From positions 2,604,001 to 2,668,000 of the forward strand of contig NZ_JAFBCR010000001.1 in NCBI RefSeq assembly GCF_016907795.1: a DNA stretch of 64,000 bases. Reading direction: 5' to 3'. This DNA comes from Kocuria palustris (GTDB lineage Bacteria; Actinomycetota; Actinomycetes; Actinomycetales; Micrococcaceae). Each line of letters begins with the position of its first letter. Position 1 is the first letter of the stretch. Positions 39,412-55,937 of this stretch are shown in pieces. Position numbers and translations under genes: made by a program. The notes beneath the pieces are model-generated. The model was not told where the DNA came from and made no database searches. It was given only the letters and a program-made list of their open reading frames with translations.

Positions 39412-39646
39412 GGGATGCGATCTGGGGGAGCGGAACGCTGCCGCCTCCCTCGATCTGCGCCGCAAGACATTACCACAGGGCGAGACTCGGACTCGCTGGA
39501 CCTCCAGGAGAGGTGCGGGGAATCCGTTTCGCGAAGCTGTGCTCCGTCGAACGACGAAGAAAAAATGTACCGGAGGTTCCCGGCGCTGTCCACTTGGTGC
39601 TCCCGGACGTGGCCTGTCTCACTATGCGGGACGGTCGTCCCGAGGA

Positions 39647-39676
39647 TTGACACGCCCTTGCGGGGCATCGGAGCAT
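39647..39676 (+). promoter_or_regulatory. putative promoter of the ilv leader
   Basis: TTGACA at 39647-39652 is followed 18 bases later by GAGCAT (39671-39676), a poor -10. The distance to the leader ATG at 39684 would suit a leaderless transcript. The upstream 39412-39646 holds nothing I can identify. Confidence 0.35.
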
Positions 39677-39683
39677 GGCCGAC

Positions 39684-39758
39684 ATGCAGTGGATCACAGC
39701 GCGCCGTCACTCGGTCATCCTGACCGGGCTGGTCGTCCCAGTCGGGCGACCGGTCTGA
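39684..39758 (+). CDS. putative ilvBNC attenuator leader peptide
   Basis: A 24-codon reading frame begins MQWITARR and continues HSVILTGLVVPVGRPV before the TGA. It contains two Ile, two Leu and five Val (nine of 24 residues), concentrated in SVILTGLVVPV. It ends 272 bases before ilvB. An in-frame ATG at 39675 could add three residues. Attenuators of this kind control ilvBNC in Corynebacterium glutamicum. Downstream inverted repeats support an attenuation mechanism, but the peptide is too short for statistical proof. Confidence 0.6.
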   Translation: MQWITARRHSVILTGLVVPVGRPV

Positions 39759-39782
39759 CGCGCGCTGAGCATCCCGCGAGCT

Positions 39783-39826
39783 GAAGGCCCCGTCGCCCGT
39801 CCGCACCAGGATGGATCGGGGCCTTC
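39783..39826 (+). promoter_or_regulatory. attenuator/terminator hairpin of the ilv leader
   Basis: GAAGGCCCCG (39783-39792) pairs exactly with CGGGGCCTTC (39817-39826). Upstream, GGTCGTCC (39731-39738) pairs with GGGCGACC (39744-39751) within the leader peptide. Alternatively GGGCGAC (39744-39750) can pair with GTCGCCC (39792-39798), a possible antiterminator that touches the terminator stem. Confidence 0.55.
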
Positions 39827-40030
39827 GCTCGTTCAGCCCGCCCGCACGATCGCCTTGGCACCCGGGGCGCCGGCGAGCGGCCGCTTCCGGAGGATGGCGA
39901 GATGCCCGAGACCTCCCGGCGCCGTCGTGCGCCAGGGGGCCGCGGGAGGCCTTCGGATCGGGGACAATGTCTGCAACGGCCGCTGGGCCGAGGACCGCAG
40001 CGCCGAGGATTCGGCACGAAGGACGATGAC

Positions 40031-41900
40031 ATGAGCAGTGGAACAGAGATCAGCCCCGCGCTGATGGCCAGTCGGCGCACGGGTGCGGGGCACCAGAAGG
40101 CGGCCTCCGACTCGGGCGTCGTCATGCCGCGGGTCATGGGGCCGAACCCCACGATCGCTCCGGAGGCGACCACCGGGTCGGGGGCGGTCATCAAGTCCCT
40201 GCAGGCGCTGGGCGTCACGGACGTCTTCGGCCTGCCGGGCGGGGCCATCCTGCCCACCTACGACCCCCTGATGGACGCCGAGGGCATCAATCACATCCTG
40301 GTCCGCCACGAGCAGGGCGCCGGGCACGCGGCCGAGGGCTACGCCATGGCCTCCGGGCGCGTGGGCGTGTGCATCGCGACCTCCGGCCCGGGTGCCACCA
40401 ACCTGGTCACCGCCCTGGCCGATGCCAACATGGACTCGATCCCCATGGTCGCGATCACCGGTCAGGTCGCCTCGAACCTGATCGGCTCGGACGCCTTCCA
40501 GGAGGCGGACATCGTGGGCATGACCATGCCGGTCACCAAGCACTCCTACCTCGTGACCGACGCCGACGAGATCCCTCGCATCATGGCCGAGGCCTTCCAC
40601 CTCGCCTCGACCGGCCGTCCCGGCCCCGTGCTGGTGGACATCGCCAAGGATGCGCAGGTCGCGTCCACGACCTTCTCCTGGCCGCCCACCCTGGACCTGG
40701 TCGGCTATCGCCCGATCGCCCGGGGCCACGCCAAGCAGATCCGCGAGGCCGCGCGCCTGATCCGCGAGGCCCGTCGTCCGGTGATCTACGCCGGCGGCGG
40801 CACGATCAAGGCGGAGGCCTCCGAGCAGCTGGCCGAGCTGGCCGAGCTCACCGGCGCCCCGGTCGTCACGACCCTCACCGCCCGCGGCGTCTTCCCGGAC
40901 TCCCACCCCCAGAACCTGGGCATGCCGGGCATGCACGGCACGGTGCCGGCCGTCTACGCCATGCAGCAGGCGGACCTGCTGATCGCCCTGGGCGCTCGGT
41001 TCGACGACCGCGTGACCGGTGTCCTCGCCTCCTTCGCCCCGAACGCCAAGGTCATCCATGCCGACGTCGACCCCGCGGAGATCTCCAAGAACCGCGTCGC
41101 CGACGTCCCGATCGTGGGCGATCTGGCCACGGTGATCCCGGATCTCTCCGAGGCGCTGCGCTCCGGCACGCAGCAGCTGCCGGACCTCGCCGACTGGTGG
41201 AAGATCCTCGACGGCGTGCGCGAGACCTACCCGCTCGGCTGGACCCCCACCGAGGACGGCCACCTCAGCCCGCAGCTCGTGATCCAGAAGATCTCGGAGC
41301 TCAGCGGACCGGAGTCGGTCTACGCCGCGGGCGTGGGCCAGCACCAGATGTGGTCCTCGCAGTTCATCCGCCACGAGCGCCCGCGCCAGTGGCTGAACTC
41401 GGCCGGACTGGGCACCATGGGCTTCGCCGTGCCGGCGGCCATGGGCGCCAAGGTCGCCGAGCCCGAGCGCACGGTGTGGGCCATCGACGGCGACGGCTGC
41501 TTCCAGATGACCAACCAGGAGCTGGCCACGTGCACGCTCAACGGGATCAACATCAAGGTCGCGGTCATCAACAACGGCTCGCTGGGCATGGTGCGGCAGT
41601 GGCAGACCCTGTTCTACGACGGCCGCTACTCGAACACCCACCTGAACACGGGCCATGACTCCCGGCGGGTCCCCGACTTCCTCAAGCTCGGCGAGGCCTA
41701 CGGCTGCGCCGTCTTCCGCTGCGAGCGGGAGGAGGACGTCGAGGAGACCATCCGCGCGGCCATGGAGGTGAACGACCGCCCGGTCGTCGTCGATTTCGTG
41801 GTCTCCGCCGACGCCATGGTGTGGCCCATGGTGCCCTCCGGCGTGGCGAACGACCTGATCCAGATCGCCCAGAACATGACGCCAGATTGGAACCAGGACG

Positions 41901-41908
<8 letters not shown>
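40031..41908 (+). CDS. ilvB: acetolactate synthase large subunit
   Basis: This ThDP/FAD enzyme makes acetolactate and acetohydroxybutyrate, the first common step of valine, leucine and isoleucine synthesis. The 625-residue protein has [12 protein letters not shown], the ThDP-activating Glu94 ([12 protein letters not shown]), and the [11 protein letters not shown] metal/ThDP motif. The N-terminal ~55 residues before the domain are polar. The ATG at 40031 follows AAGGA; an earlier in-frame ATG (39902) is less likely because it lies close behind the leader hairpin. ilvN overlaps its end by eight bases. Confidence 0.95.
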
Positions 41909-43563
<1,655 letters not shown>

Positions 43564-46105: not shown

Positions 46106-46124
46106 CGTCTCACATCATGAGATG
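46106..46124. promoter_or_regulatory. inverted-repeat operator upstream of leuB
   Basis: CGTCTCA-CATCAT-GAGATG lies 37 bases upstream of the leuB -10 box. The arms and spacing match the site at 55919 next to the IclR regulator, suggesting control by the same protein. The position upstream of the core promoter would suit activation. Confidence 0.6.
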
Positions 46125-46160: not shown

Positions 46161-46166
46161 TATCGT
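46161..46166 (+). promoter_or_regulatory. -10 box of leuB, near-leaderless
   Basis: TATCGT lies 7 bases before the ATG at 46174. GAGGGG in between could also act as a weak ribosome binding site for a short leader. Confidence 0.55.
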
Positions 46167-46173
46167 GAGGGGC

Positions 46174-47253
46174 ATGACCGCGCAGAACACCGTCACCGCC
46201 TCATCCGCCTCCCACCGCATCGCCGTGATCCCCGGGGACGGAATCGGCCCGGAGGTCGTCGCCCAGTCGCAGAAGGTGCTGGCGGCGGTGTGCGCCCCGG
46301 CAGGGATCGAGCTGCAGGAGACCAGCTTCCCGCTGGGCGCCGAGCACTGGCTGGCCACGGGGGAGACCCTGCCGGATGAGACGCTCGAGCAGCTGCGCGG
46401 CTATGACGCCATCCTCTTCGGCGCTGTGGGCGCGGCTCCTGGCGACAAGCGGATCCCGTCGGGGATCATCGAGCGCGAGATGCTGCTGAAGATGCGCTTC
46501 AGCCTGGACCACTACATCAACCTGCGCCCGTCGGAGCTGTTCCCCGGCGCGGTCTCTCCGCTGAGCGACCCCGGGAACATCGACTTCGTCGTGGTCCGGG
46601 AGGGCACCGAGGGCCCGTACACCGGCAACGGCGGTGCGCTGCGCGAGGGCACCGATCAGGAGATCGCCACGGAGGTCTCGATCAACACCGCCCACGGCGT
46701 GCAGCGCCTGGTGCGCTACGCCTTCGAGCTGGCGGCCGAGCGGCCCCGGCACAAGCTGACGCTCGTGCACAAGCACAACGTCCTGGTCCACTCCGGGCGC
46801 CTCTACCAGCGCACGGTGGATGCGATCGCCCAGGAGTTCCCGGCGGTCGAGGTCGACTACATGCACATCGACGCCGCGACCATCCACATGACCGTGGATC
46901 CGGCTCGATTCGACGTCATCGTCACGGACAACCTCTTCGGCGACATCATCACCGACCTCGCCGGCGCCGTCTCCGGCGGCATCGGCCTGGCTCCCTGCGG
47001 CAACATCAATGCCGCTCGCACCGCGCCGTCCATGTTCGAGCCCGTCCACGGCTCGGCCCCGGATATCGCCGGACAGGGCATCGCCGACCCCACCGCCTCG
47101 ATCCTGGCGGGGGCCATGATGCTGGATCACCTGGGACACCCCCAGCAGGCCCAGCAGATCCGCGACGCCGTGCGCCGCGACCTGGAGGCCTCCGGCTCGC
47201 AGCGCCGCAGCACCGAGCAGATCGGCGACGCGGTCGTCGCCGCCCTGGCCTGA
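46174..47253 (+). CDS. leuB: 3-isopropylmalate dehydrogenase
   Basis: LeuB performs the NAD-dependent oxidative decarboxylation step of leucine synthesis. The 359-residue protein has [14 protein letters not shown], the substrate arginines in [15 protein letters not shown], the catalytic Lys/Asp region ([24 protein letters not shown]) and [15 protein letters not shown]. The ATG at 46174 is supported by the -10 box; the in-frame GTG at 46165 overlaps that box. It is probably regulated through the inverted repeat at 46106. Confidence 0.95.
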
Positions 47254-51027: not shown

Positions 51028-51099
51028 TGGGGTATGGTGTAATCGGCAACACTACGGTTTCTGGTACCGTCATTCTAGGTTCGAGTCCTGGTACCCCAG
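51028..51099 (+). tRNA. tRNA-Gln (anticodon CTG)
   Basis: The acceptor TGGGGTA / TACCCCA, anticodon arm ACGGT-TTCTGGT-ACCGT (anticodon CTG) and T-arm GGTTCGAGTCC define a 72-base tRNA. CCA is not encoded. Confidence 0.95.
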
Positions 51100-51100
51100 C

Positions 51101-51173
51101 GGCCCCATCGTATAGCGGCCTAGTACTCCGCCCTCTCACGGCGGCAACACCGGTTCGAATCCGGTTGGGGTCA
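51101..51173 (+). tRNA. tRNA-Glu (anticodon CTC), copy 1
   Basis: The acceptor GGCCCCA / TGGGGTC, anticodon arm CCGCC-CTCTCAC-GGCGG (anticodon CTC) and T-arm GGTTCGAATCC define a 73-base tRNA. It starts one base after tRNA-Gln, so both are in one transcript. Identical to copy 2. Confidence 0.96.
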
Positions 51174-51183
51174 CTTCCGCTGA

Positions 51184-51217
51184 CAGCTGCGTCGCATCTT
51201 CGGGTGCGGCGCAGCTG
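51184..51217 (+). terminator. terminator between the two tRNA-Glu genes
   Basis: A 15-bp stem (51184-51198 with 51203-51217, two G.T pairs) closes on a stable TTCG tetraloop and is followed by TTCACG. Confidence 0.75.
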
Positions 51218-51297
51218 TTCACGAGACCACCGGCGCACGTCGTCGGTCGCGCGCCCCGATCCTCGGATCGGGAATCCGCTCGCACTGCGAGCACCTC

Positions 51298-51370
51298 GGC
51301 CCCATCGTATAGCGGCCTAGTACTCCGCCCTCTCACGGCGGCAACACCGGTTCGAATCCGGTTGGGGTCA
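51298..51370 (+). tRNA. tRNA-Glu (anticodon CTC), copy 2
   Basis: An exact 73-base duplicate of the tRNA-Glu at 51101, 197 bases downstream. The flanks differ, so only the tRNA unit is repeated. Confidence 0.96.
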
Positions 51371-55132: not shown

Positions 55133-55906
55133 TCAGAGTCCCGGGCGGATGGCCTGGGTGAGCTGACGCGCCGCCGCCACGACCGTCTCGGCGTGCAGCC
55201 GTCCGGGCTGGCGGGTCAGGCGCTCGATCGGTCCCGAGATCGACGCGGCGGCGATGACGCGCCCGGACGGTCCGCGCACCGGAGCGGAGACCGAGGCGAT
55301 GCCCGCCTCGCGCTCGCCGATGGACTGGGACCAGCCGCGGCGTCGGACTCCGGAGAGCATGGTGGCCGTGAAGCGGGCGCCCTGCAGGCCCTCGAGCAGG
55401 CGGCTGTGATCCTCCCAGGCGGTGAGCACCTGGGCCGCCGAGCCCGCCTTCATGGACAGCTGGGTGCCGACCGGGATGGTGTCGCGCAGGCCGATCGGGC
55501 GCTCCGAGGAGGCCACGCAGACGCGCCATTCTCCCTGGCGCCTGAAGATCTGCGCGGACTCGCCGGTGGCATCGCGCAGCTGCACGAGCGTGGGGCCTGC
55601 CGCGGCGATCAGGCGGTCCTCGCCGGCGGCCGAGGAGAGCTCGACCAGGCGCGGGCCCAGCACGAACCTGCCCTGGATGTCCTTGCCGAGCAGCCGGTGA
55701 TGCGCCAGGGCGGAGGCCAGCCGGTGGACGGTGGGCCGCGAGTAGCCGGTGGCCGAGACCAGCTGGGCCAGTGAGGCGGGGCCGGCCTCGAGGGCATCGA
55801 GGATCCCGGAGGCCTTGTCGATCACCCCGACTCCGCTGGGGGAGAAGGAGGTCTCCGCCTCGGCGGAGGTGCTGCGGAGGGGGTCGGAGGCCCGCGGAGT
55901 GTCCAT
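55133..55906 (-). CDS. IclR-family regulator of leucine biosynthesis (LtbR/NdgR type)
   Basis: The 257-residue protein has an N-terminal winged helix (ASLAQLVSATGYSRPTVHRLAS) and the C-terminal IclR effector domain. Divergent position immediately before leuCD is the hallmark of C. glutamicum LtbR and of NdgR in Streptomyces and mycobacteria, which control leuB and leuCD. Compared with those ~235-residue proteins it has about 25 extra N-terminal residues before the helix-turn-helix. The start ATG at 55906 is supported by a TAGTAT -10 box 6 bases away, and the shared inverted repeat at 55919 sits right behind it, suggesting autoregulation. Confidence 0.85.
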   Translation of the reverse strand: MDTPRASDPLRSTSAEAETSFSPSGVGVIDKASGILDALEAGPASLAQLVSATGYSRPTVHRLASALAHHRLLGKDIQGRFVLGPRLVELSSAAGEDRLIAAAGPTLVQLRDATGESAQIFRRQGEWRVCVASSERPIGLRDTIPVGTQLSMKAGSAAQVLTAWEDHSRLLEGLQGARFTATMLSGVRRRGWSQSIGEREAGIASVSAPVRGPSGRVIAAASISGPIERLTRQPGRLHAETVVAAARQLTQAIRPGL

Positions 55907-55918: not shown

Positions 55919-55937
55919 CGTCTCAGGATGCGAGATG
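55919..55937. promoter_or_regulatory. inverted-repeat operator between the IclR gene and leuC
   Basis: CGTCTCA-GGATGC-GAGATG matches the site 5' of leuB (46106) in both arms with the same 6-base spacer. It overlaps the IclR promoter and lies about 130 bases before leuC. Confidence 0.65.

Follow-up and report, generated by a model that had tools for sequence, protein, structure and literature searches.

A Probable Leader-Peptide Attenuator Ahead of ilvBNC in Kocuria palustris

Introduction

RNA switches that sense the translation of a short peptide are a well-known kind of regulatory element. In Corynebacterium glutamicum, such an element (the ilvB-II motif) is described as lying ahead of ilvBNC and as combining a branched-chain-rich leader peptide of 15 codons with anti-antiterminator, antiterminator and terminator hairpins (PMC11857589; PMC10272879), the transcription start being placed one nucleotide from the leader codon (PMC11857589). 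The ilvB1NC attenuator of Mycobacterium tuberculosis, which is experimentally supported, is portrayed as a branched-chain-rich upstream ORF with a leader terminator, in which a ribosome at the stop codon blocks the antiterminator (PMC13236596). Short Ile/Val/Leu ORFs followed by a terminator have furthermore been predicted ahead of ilvB in Streptomyces, Mycobacterium and Corynebacterium (Seliverstov 2005; PMC1262725), and the same article reports that altered ilvB leader codons were without effect in Streptomyces coelicolor.

Herein, we describe a computational analysis of the ilvBNC upstream region in a stretch of 64,000 nucleotides of the Kocuria palustris genome (hereafter, the window), around which the genome is a single contig of 2.9 Mb. 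Like the C. glutamicum attenuator, the element in the window stands ahead of ilvBNC, carries a branched-chain-rich leader peptide, has a predicted transcription start beside the leader ATG and can form the same three kinds of hairpins (PMC11857589; PMC10272879). Unlike it, as far as two systems compared by description and not by alignment can be set side by side, the leader has 24 codons, the overlap comprises 6 nt of the terminator arm instead of the reported GCC, and the terminator is U-poor. The likeness to M. tuberculosis (PMC13236596) lies in the branched-chain-rich ORF, the leader terminator and the block of the antiterminator by a ribosome at the stop codon, but the Kocuria case is computational and was likened to it by description, not by sequence. 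A short Ile/Val/Leu ORF with a terminator likewise fits the predictions of Seliverstov 2005, in the main text of which Kocuria, Arthrobacter and names in Micrococc- do not occur (PMC1262725), and a limited literature search on ilvB leaders or attenuation in these taxa retrieved no description of the present case. The Rfam matches in the window and in 39560-40040 included no ilvB family; Rfam may not hold the ilvB-II motif. As detailed below, the reading of this switch as an ordinary ilvB leader-peptide attenuator, added to the Corynebacterium and Mycobacterium precedents, is well supported.

Organization of the locus and the leader reading frame

The ilvB gene (40031..41908, + strand), encoding the 625-aa large subunit of acetolactate synthase, was identified by NF005860 (1058.7 bits), and its start was aligned to those of the relatives. 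It is followed on the same strand by ilvN for the small subunit (41901..42419; NF008864) and by a gene at 42535..43563 that we take to be ilvC, the frame of which is open from 42193 and the start of which was set by eye. The spacer between the terminator-type hairpin and ilvB measures about 200 nt in the window; a 56-nt block of it just 5' of ilvB (39975-40030) shows 3 differences from the nearest relative (L084), the remaining spacer having diverged. The block 39945-40034 was considered as a genomic repeat and rejected, itself being the sole strong hit among 16 matches at E ≤ 1 (next E, 0.01). Elsewhere in the window, three clustered tRNA genes with equal Rfam scores were found at 51028-51370.

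The leader frame, 24 codons encoding MQWITARRHSVILTGLVVPVGRPV, occupies 39684..39758 on the + strand (ATG at 39684, TGA at 39756-39758) and ends 272 nt ahead of ilvBNC. Both the sequence and the ORF list bore out this frame as given in the original prediction, together with its nine Ile, Leu or Val residues (I4, V11, I12, L13, L16, V17, V18, V20 and V24). An alternative in-frame start at ATG 39675, giving 27 codons, was discarded: it overlaps the -10 element, and the relatives open at the equivalent of 39684.

A search of 27 same-genus genomes, including the window's own, gave 25 with an ilvB match at threshold, the other two being assemblies 76-79% complete. In all 25 loci (L001, the window, and L084-L107), a counterpart of the leader was present, with 18-34 codons, 6-14 of them for Ile, Leu or Val; the conserved frame on which the original prediction depended is thus found in the relatives. 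With 9 of 24 codons for Ile, Leu or Val and a frame kept in 25/25 loci, the predicted peptide has the richness in end-product codons proper to an attenuator. Close to their C-termini, the peptides have in common a stretch of Val, Leu or Ile with a Gly behind it (VVLIG, VLVG and similar), the window having LVVPVG. On the basis of alignment by eye to this run before the conserved Gly and of the stall-state folds described below, we propose Leu16-Val17-Val18 (39729..39737, + strand) as the main stall codons, with Val11-Ile12-Leu13 as a possible alternative.

The synonymous/non-synonymous test gave a weak signal of amino-acid conservation or coding, with pN/pS ratios of 0.72 (groups C and E together), 1.22 (C alone), 0.94 (A) and 0.40 (D); groups A-E were defined by leader start, not by tree. 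Codon usage in the leaders departs from that in ilvB: GTA accounts for 21% of Val codons in the Kocuria leaders (n = 117; L001, L084-L107) versus 1.3% in ilvB (n = 1381), and GTG for 6% versus 62%. Relative to ilvB, GTC, GTA and CTC are preferred in the leaders and GTG and CTG are shunned, a bias that may be caused in part by the hairpin itself.

Promoter and predicted transcription start

A -35 element, TTGACA, lies at 39647..39652 (+ strand) and reads TTGACAC in 25/25 loci, the distance from its first base to the leader start codon being 35-38 nt in every same-genus locus. The corresponding -10 element, GAGCAT at 39671..39676 (+ strand), is weak (3/6 consensus matches), and its position was deduced from the conserved spacing; a consensus promoter scan of the window did not report the TTGACA promoter. 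Judging from these elements, transcription should start at the leader ATG itself or no more than about 2 nt away from it (predicted at ~39682-39685). The fixed spacing between TTGACA and the leader suggests that the leader mRNA is probably leaderless and read without a Shine-Dalgarno site.

Hairpins and the alternative pairing

The region 39660-39850 folds far more stably than chance would allow (z = -6.0; 0/200 shuffles). The original prediction comprised a first hairpin (39731-39738/39744-39751), a terminator-type hairpin (39783-39792/39817-39826) and an alternative pairing (39744-39750/39792-39798); the arms of the first do pair, with one G-U, and those of the other two are exact complements. 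The first hairpin proved longer in the fold than had been proposed, its arms 1 and 2 forming 13 pairs (39726-39738/39744-39756; feature 39726..39756, + strand; -22.4 kcal/mol). The terminator-type hairpin (39780..39828, + strand; -32.5 kcal/mol) comprises the stem given above and an inner stem at 39797-39802/39809-39814, and is followed by a poor U-tract. In the duplex and stalled-state folds, the putative antiterminator (39743..39799, + strand) consists of 8 bp between 39743-39750 and 39792-39799 and 5 bp between 39752-39756 and 39785-39789.

This extended pairing bears on a doubt voiced in the original prediction, in which the overlap with the terminator stem was put at a single base plus the loop and mutual exclusion was held to be uncertain. 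The one-base overlap is superseded, as the pairing reaches 5 bp into the stem, taking 6 of the 10 nt of the terminator left arm (39785-39789 and 39792) and 3 of the 6 of the inner stem (39797-39799). The modelled exclusion between antiterminator and terminator would accordingly be substantial in extent, and the doubt is largely met.

A GC-rich hairpin begins 18-35 nt 3' of the leader stop in all 25 same-genus loci, and arm 2 and the terminator left arm (arm 3) share an ungapped pairing of 5-9 bp in 25/25 (a count made without shuffle control), with group-specific extensions, for example TCGGGCCTG/CAGGCCCGA and CGGGGCCTG/CGGGCCCTG; in L090 and L091, the best pairing is in another register. In only 9/25 loci is the duplex at least as stable as the 5% shuffle level, and when arms were swapped between groups, the own pairing was better both ways in A and E, better one way in C and D, and worse both ways in B. 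In L085, L086 and L092, the stop codon comes 3 codons earlier than in the other Kocuria loci and the arm 2 sequence CGGGYCTG is kept though untranslated there, which speaks for a role of arm 2 as RNA. An RNAalifold consensus on the MAFFT alignment yielded 4 pairs only, in our opinion because MAFFT fails to align the terminator arms of the different groups with one another; pairing was assessed per sequence instead.

Folding with a stalled ribosome

The nascent RNA was folded up to just before the terminator right arm, with a simulated ribosome at codons 10 to the stop and its front edge 15 nt past the P-site. In the window, the number of arm 3 nucleotides paired upstream, out of 17, was 11.2 when the A-site lay at codon 10, 12.0-12.9 for codons 11-16, 11.0 for codon 17, 8.3 for codon 18 and 7.2-9.9 for codons 19-21, and it fell to 0.0-0.3 from codon 22 to the stop. 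The best stalled-state structure pairs 39743-39750 with 39792-39799 and 39752-39756 with 39785-39789, and when no ribosome is present, arm 2 is sequestered by the leader hairpin together with an outer helix. The folding comparison that had been proposed as a check revealed a switch in silico, the stalled ribosome freeing the antiterminator and the ribosome at the stop blocking it.

The original prediction located the stall at Val11-Ile12-Leu13, where the ribosome would cover the left arm of the first hairpin. A ribosome at these codons reaches only 39726-39732, at the very edge of the left arm (39731-39738), although the antiterminator still forms. The simulation does not single out either Val11-Ile12-Leu13 or Leu16-Val17 as the stall site. 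We favour the latter as the main stall codons on two grounds, namely that the left arm lies under a ribosome waiting there and that these codons correspond to the Val/Leu run conserved in the relatives.

Over the 25 loci, the mean number of arm 3 nucleotides paired, out of 12, was 7.7 in the stalled state, 1.9 at the stop and 2.4 with no ribosome, versus 4.35, 2.15 and 5.36, respectively, in the shuffled counterparts. The computed stalled and stop states differed by more than 3 nt in 25/25 loci, and the stalled and ribosome-free states in 17/25. The combined contrast was reached by 0/100 shuffles of the window and 1/100 of L084; it was weak in six relatives (L087, L088, L094, L101, L102 and L105), for which 11-39 of 100 shuffles reached it. 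In L101-L103, L105 and L106, arm 3 is well paired even with no ribosome (5.2-7.9 of 12). At equilibrium, the terminator was the preferred fold of the full RNA for all stall positions tried (P = 1.00), which means that the switch must be kinetic.

The conserved leader, the hairpins and the alternative pairing computed here support the attenuator reading, and we consider it very probable, as modelled, that a translation-dependent transcription attenuator controls ilvBNC. In the mechanism that we propose, transcription would start no further than 2 nt from the leader ATG at 39684, and the leader peptide would be read from a leaderless mRNA. When charged Val, Leu and Ile tRNAs are plentiful, the ribosome would reach the stop codon and cover arm 2 (39743-39756), so that the terminator (39783-39826) forms and transcription ends before ilvB. 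When charged tRNA is short, the ribosome would wait at Leu16-Val17(-Val18), or already at Val11-Ile12-Leu13; arm 2 would then be freed to pair with 39785-39799 in the terminator left arm, and RNA polymerase would continue into ilvBNC. In the absence of a ribosome, arm 1 would trap arm 2, and the terminator could form.

A predicted IclR-type operator upstream of the promoter

A palindromic box, GTCTCACTATGCGGGAC, lies at 39616..39632 (+ strand) and is a probable operator of an IclR-type regulator; in all 25 same-genus ilvB loci, the best match stops exactly 14 nt short of the -35 element on its upstream side, with 1-6 mismatches to the consensus applied, the maximum of 6 being in L101 (these ilvB counts are without shuffle control). 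Boxes of the same kind were found ahead of leuB (46107..46123, - strand; 2 mismatches), the frame of which spans 46165-47253 (LeuB by NF002898), and in the interval that separates the iclR-type gene from leuC (55920..55936, + strand; 3 mismatches). The regulator gene (55133..55906, - strand), divergent from leuC, matched PF01614 and PF09339 above cut-off and NCBIfam models below their cut-offs. It has counterparts in 27/27 same-genus genomes, and the box upstream of it was best with 2-4 mismatches in 27/27 same-genus regions (shuffled best, ~6-7). At least three box matches within the window occurred in 1/100 window shuffles, and the genome holds 9 boxes with up to 3 mismatches versus 0 for the reversed pattern. 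The boxes at ilvB, leuB and iclR-leuC would make up a small shared regulon inside one window. Apart from these, L108 and L111 (genome 1305289-1305495) are two same-kind boxes ~190 bp apart near a frame that by eye resembles a winged-helix regulator, with no obvious branched-chain gene nearby.

This arrangement, an IclR-type regulator beside leuC with a shared predicted operator at ilvB, leuB and leuC, is that of the NdgR/LtbR regulon. The passages of PMC4340878 on S. coelicolor list ilvB, leuB and ndgR-leuC among the NdgR targets, and the divergent position of the regulator gene agrees as well; the box differs, being a 17-bp GTCTCAnnATGyGAGAy here versus the reported 15-bp motif, and orthology is indicated by position and family only. 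The IclR-type protein probably sets promoter activity from 39616-39632 as a second layer of control; that it activates rather than represses is a guess from the position of the box.

These data raise the alternative that a regulator of this NdgR/LtbR-like type exerts the main control, the leader and hairpins of this species being an attenuator that is minor or has decayed. The box at its constant distance from the -35 element in 25/25 loci, its partners at leuB and iclR-leuC and the NdgR targets in S. coelicolor (PMC4340878) favour this explanation, as do the weak -10 element, the scarcity of U behind the terminator hairpin of the window and of L084, and the reported lack of effect of leader codon changes in S. 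coelicolor (PMC1262725). However, the leader, its spacing and the switch geometry are kept in both the window and L084 (0 and 1 of 100 shuffles), which would be unexpected under decay, and the two layers can coexist. We therefore regard main control by the IclR-type regulator as unlikely, though far from negligible.

Terminator tail, Rfam search and survey controls

A strict intrinsic-terminator scan of the + strand found none, because the tail of this hairpin, CCTTCGCTCGTTC, is devoid of a U-run; L084 shares this lack. A hairpin of this kind and the spacer of ~200 nt between it and ilvB in the window could be accommodated if no intrinsic terminator existed and leader translation instead governed the access of Rho or the pausing of RNA polymerase at the U-poor hairpin. 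Nevertheless, a T-run of at least 4 stands behind the corresponding hairpin in 14/25 loci by our own count, and the window retains the strong GC stem. We hold Rho access or pausing to be a rather improbable explanation.

The highly structured leader (z = -6.0) would also suit a riboswitch or T-box in place of a peptide-sensing leader, but Rfam cut-offs were reached solely by tRNAs in the window, and likewise in 10 of the retrieved loci, and the open frame is kept in 25/25 loci while the sequence changes; such an element is thus very improbable. A relaxed covariance search for T-boxes or riboswitches over 39560-40040 gave nhaA-II at 20.7 bits (cut-off 70.4) and mir-5408 at 15.9 bits (cut-off 90), which were taken as chance matches.

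An automated test for a leader, a hairpin and a U-rich tail was passed by 22/25 Kocuria loci, 22/24 of L007-L030 and 18/53 of L031-L083. The reverse strands gave 0/25, 2/24 and 1/53 passes, respectively, and mononucleotide shuffles 0-2 per set. The Kocuria loci that missed it are the window, L084 and L092, and L050 looks to be a false one among the 18 passes. The comparison of ilvB upstream regions of related genera, also proposed with the original prediction, accordingly showed a leader and terminator in 22/24 loci of L007-L030. Among the 35 failing loci of L031-L083, 30 by our own count have, within 200 nt before the ilvB match, what we take to be an IlvD-like C-terminal motif, and many are Microbacteriaceae by title. 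One further locus, L029, is labelled Sporosarcina beigongshangi; its ilvB ranks among the Micrococcaceae and it has a similar leader, and the label may be wrong. A chance ORF over an unrelated terminator, conceivable in GC-rich sequence that yields many frames and hairpins (12 frames of at least 20 aa overlap 39500-39950), is practically refuted by the presence of the leader in 25/25 loci at a fixed promoter distance and by Kocuria controls of 0/25 on the reverse strand and 0/25 in each of 5 shuffles.

Pairing geometry outside Kocuria

A set of 35 leaders was hand-chosen from the 77 loci outside Kocuria (among L007-L027 and L033-L082), with at least 5 nt counted as paired, one stall codon per leader, and terminator borders and fold end set slightly differently than for Kocuria. 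Under these settings, the arm freed by stalling paired with the 12 nt immediately 5' of the terminator in 34/35 leaders and inside the terminator stem in 2/35, both from Nesterenkonia, versus inside the stem in 25/25 and also before the terminator in 23/25 in Kocuria. Inspection of 7 non-Kocuria leaders likewise placed the freed arm just before the terminator, not inside it, and many of the flush helices outside Kocuria form with no ribosome too. A stem-invasion switch was tried on 25 hand-chosen leaders from outside Kocuria and rejected, the stalled value being 0.0 or 0.1 in all.

These geometries allow the tentative idea that the ilvB leader peptide stays in actinobacteria and the RNA switch behind it is rewired. 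Stem invasion would then characterize Kocuria (25/25) and the two Nesterenkonia leaders, and solely flush pairing the other 33/35; the U-run would have been lost in the lineage of the window, so that termination there may need help. We consider such rewiring possible, though doubtful.

Conclusions

With this locus, Kocuria and its neighbours join the actinobacteria that have a probable leader-peptide attenuator at ilvBNC, here paired with a predicted IclR-type operator at fixed spacing. The 25 natural variants, including a U-poor terminator, would lend themselves to testing attenuation in GC-rich bacteria, for which the published Streptomyces result misfits the classical attenuation model (PMC1262725). 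If the rewiring is true, these leaders would furthermore constitute a natural series of attenuators that change their mechanism while keeping their sensor.
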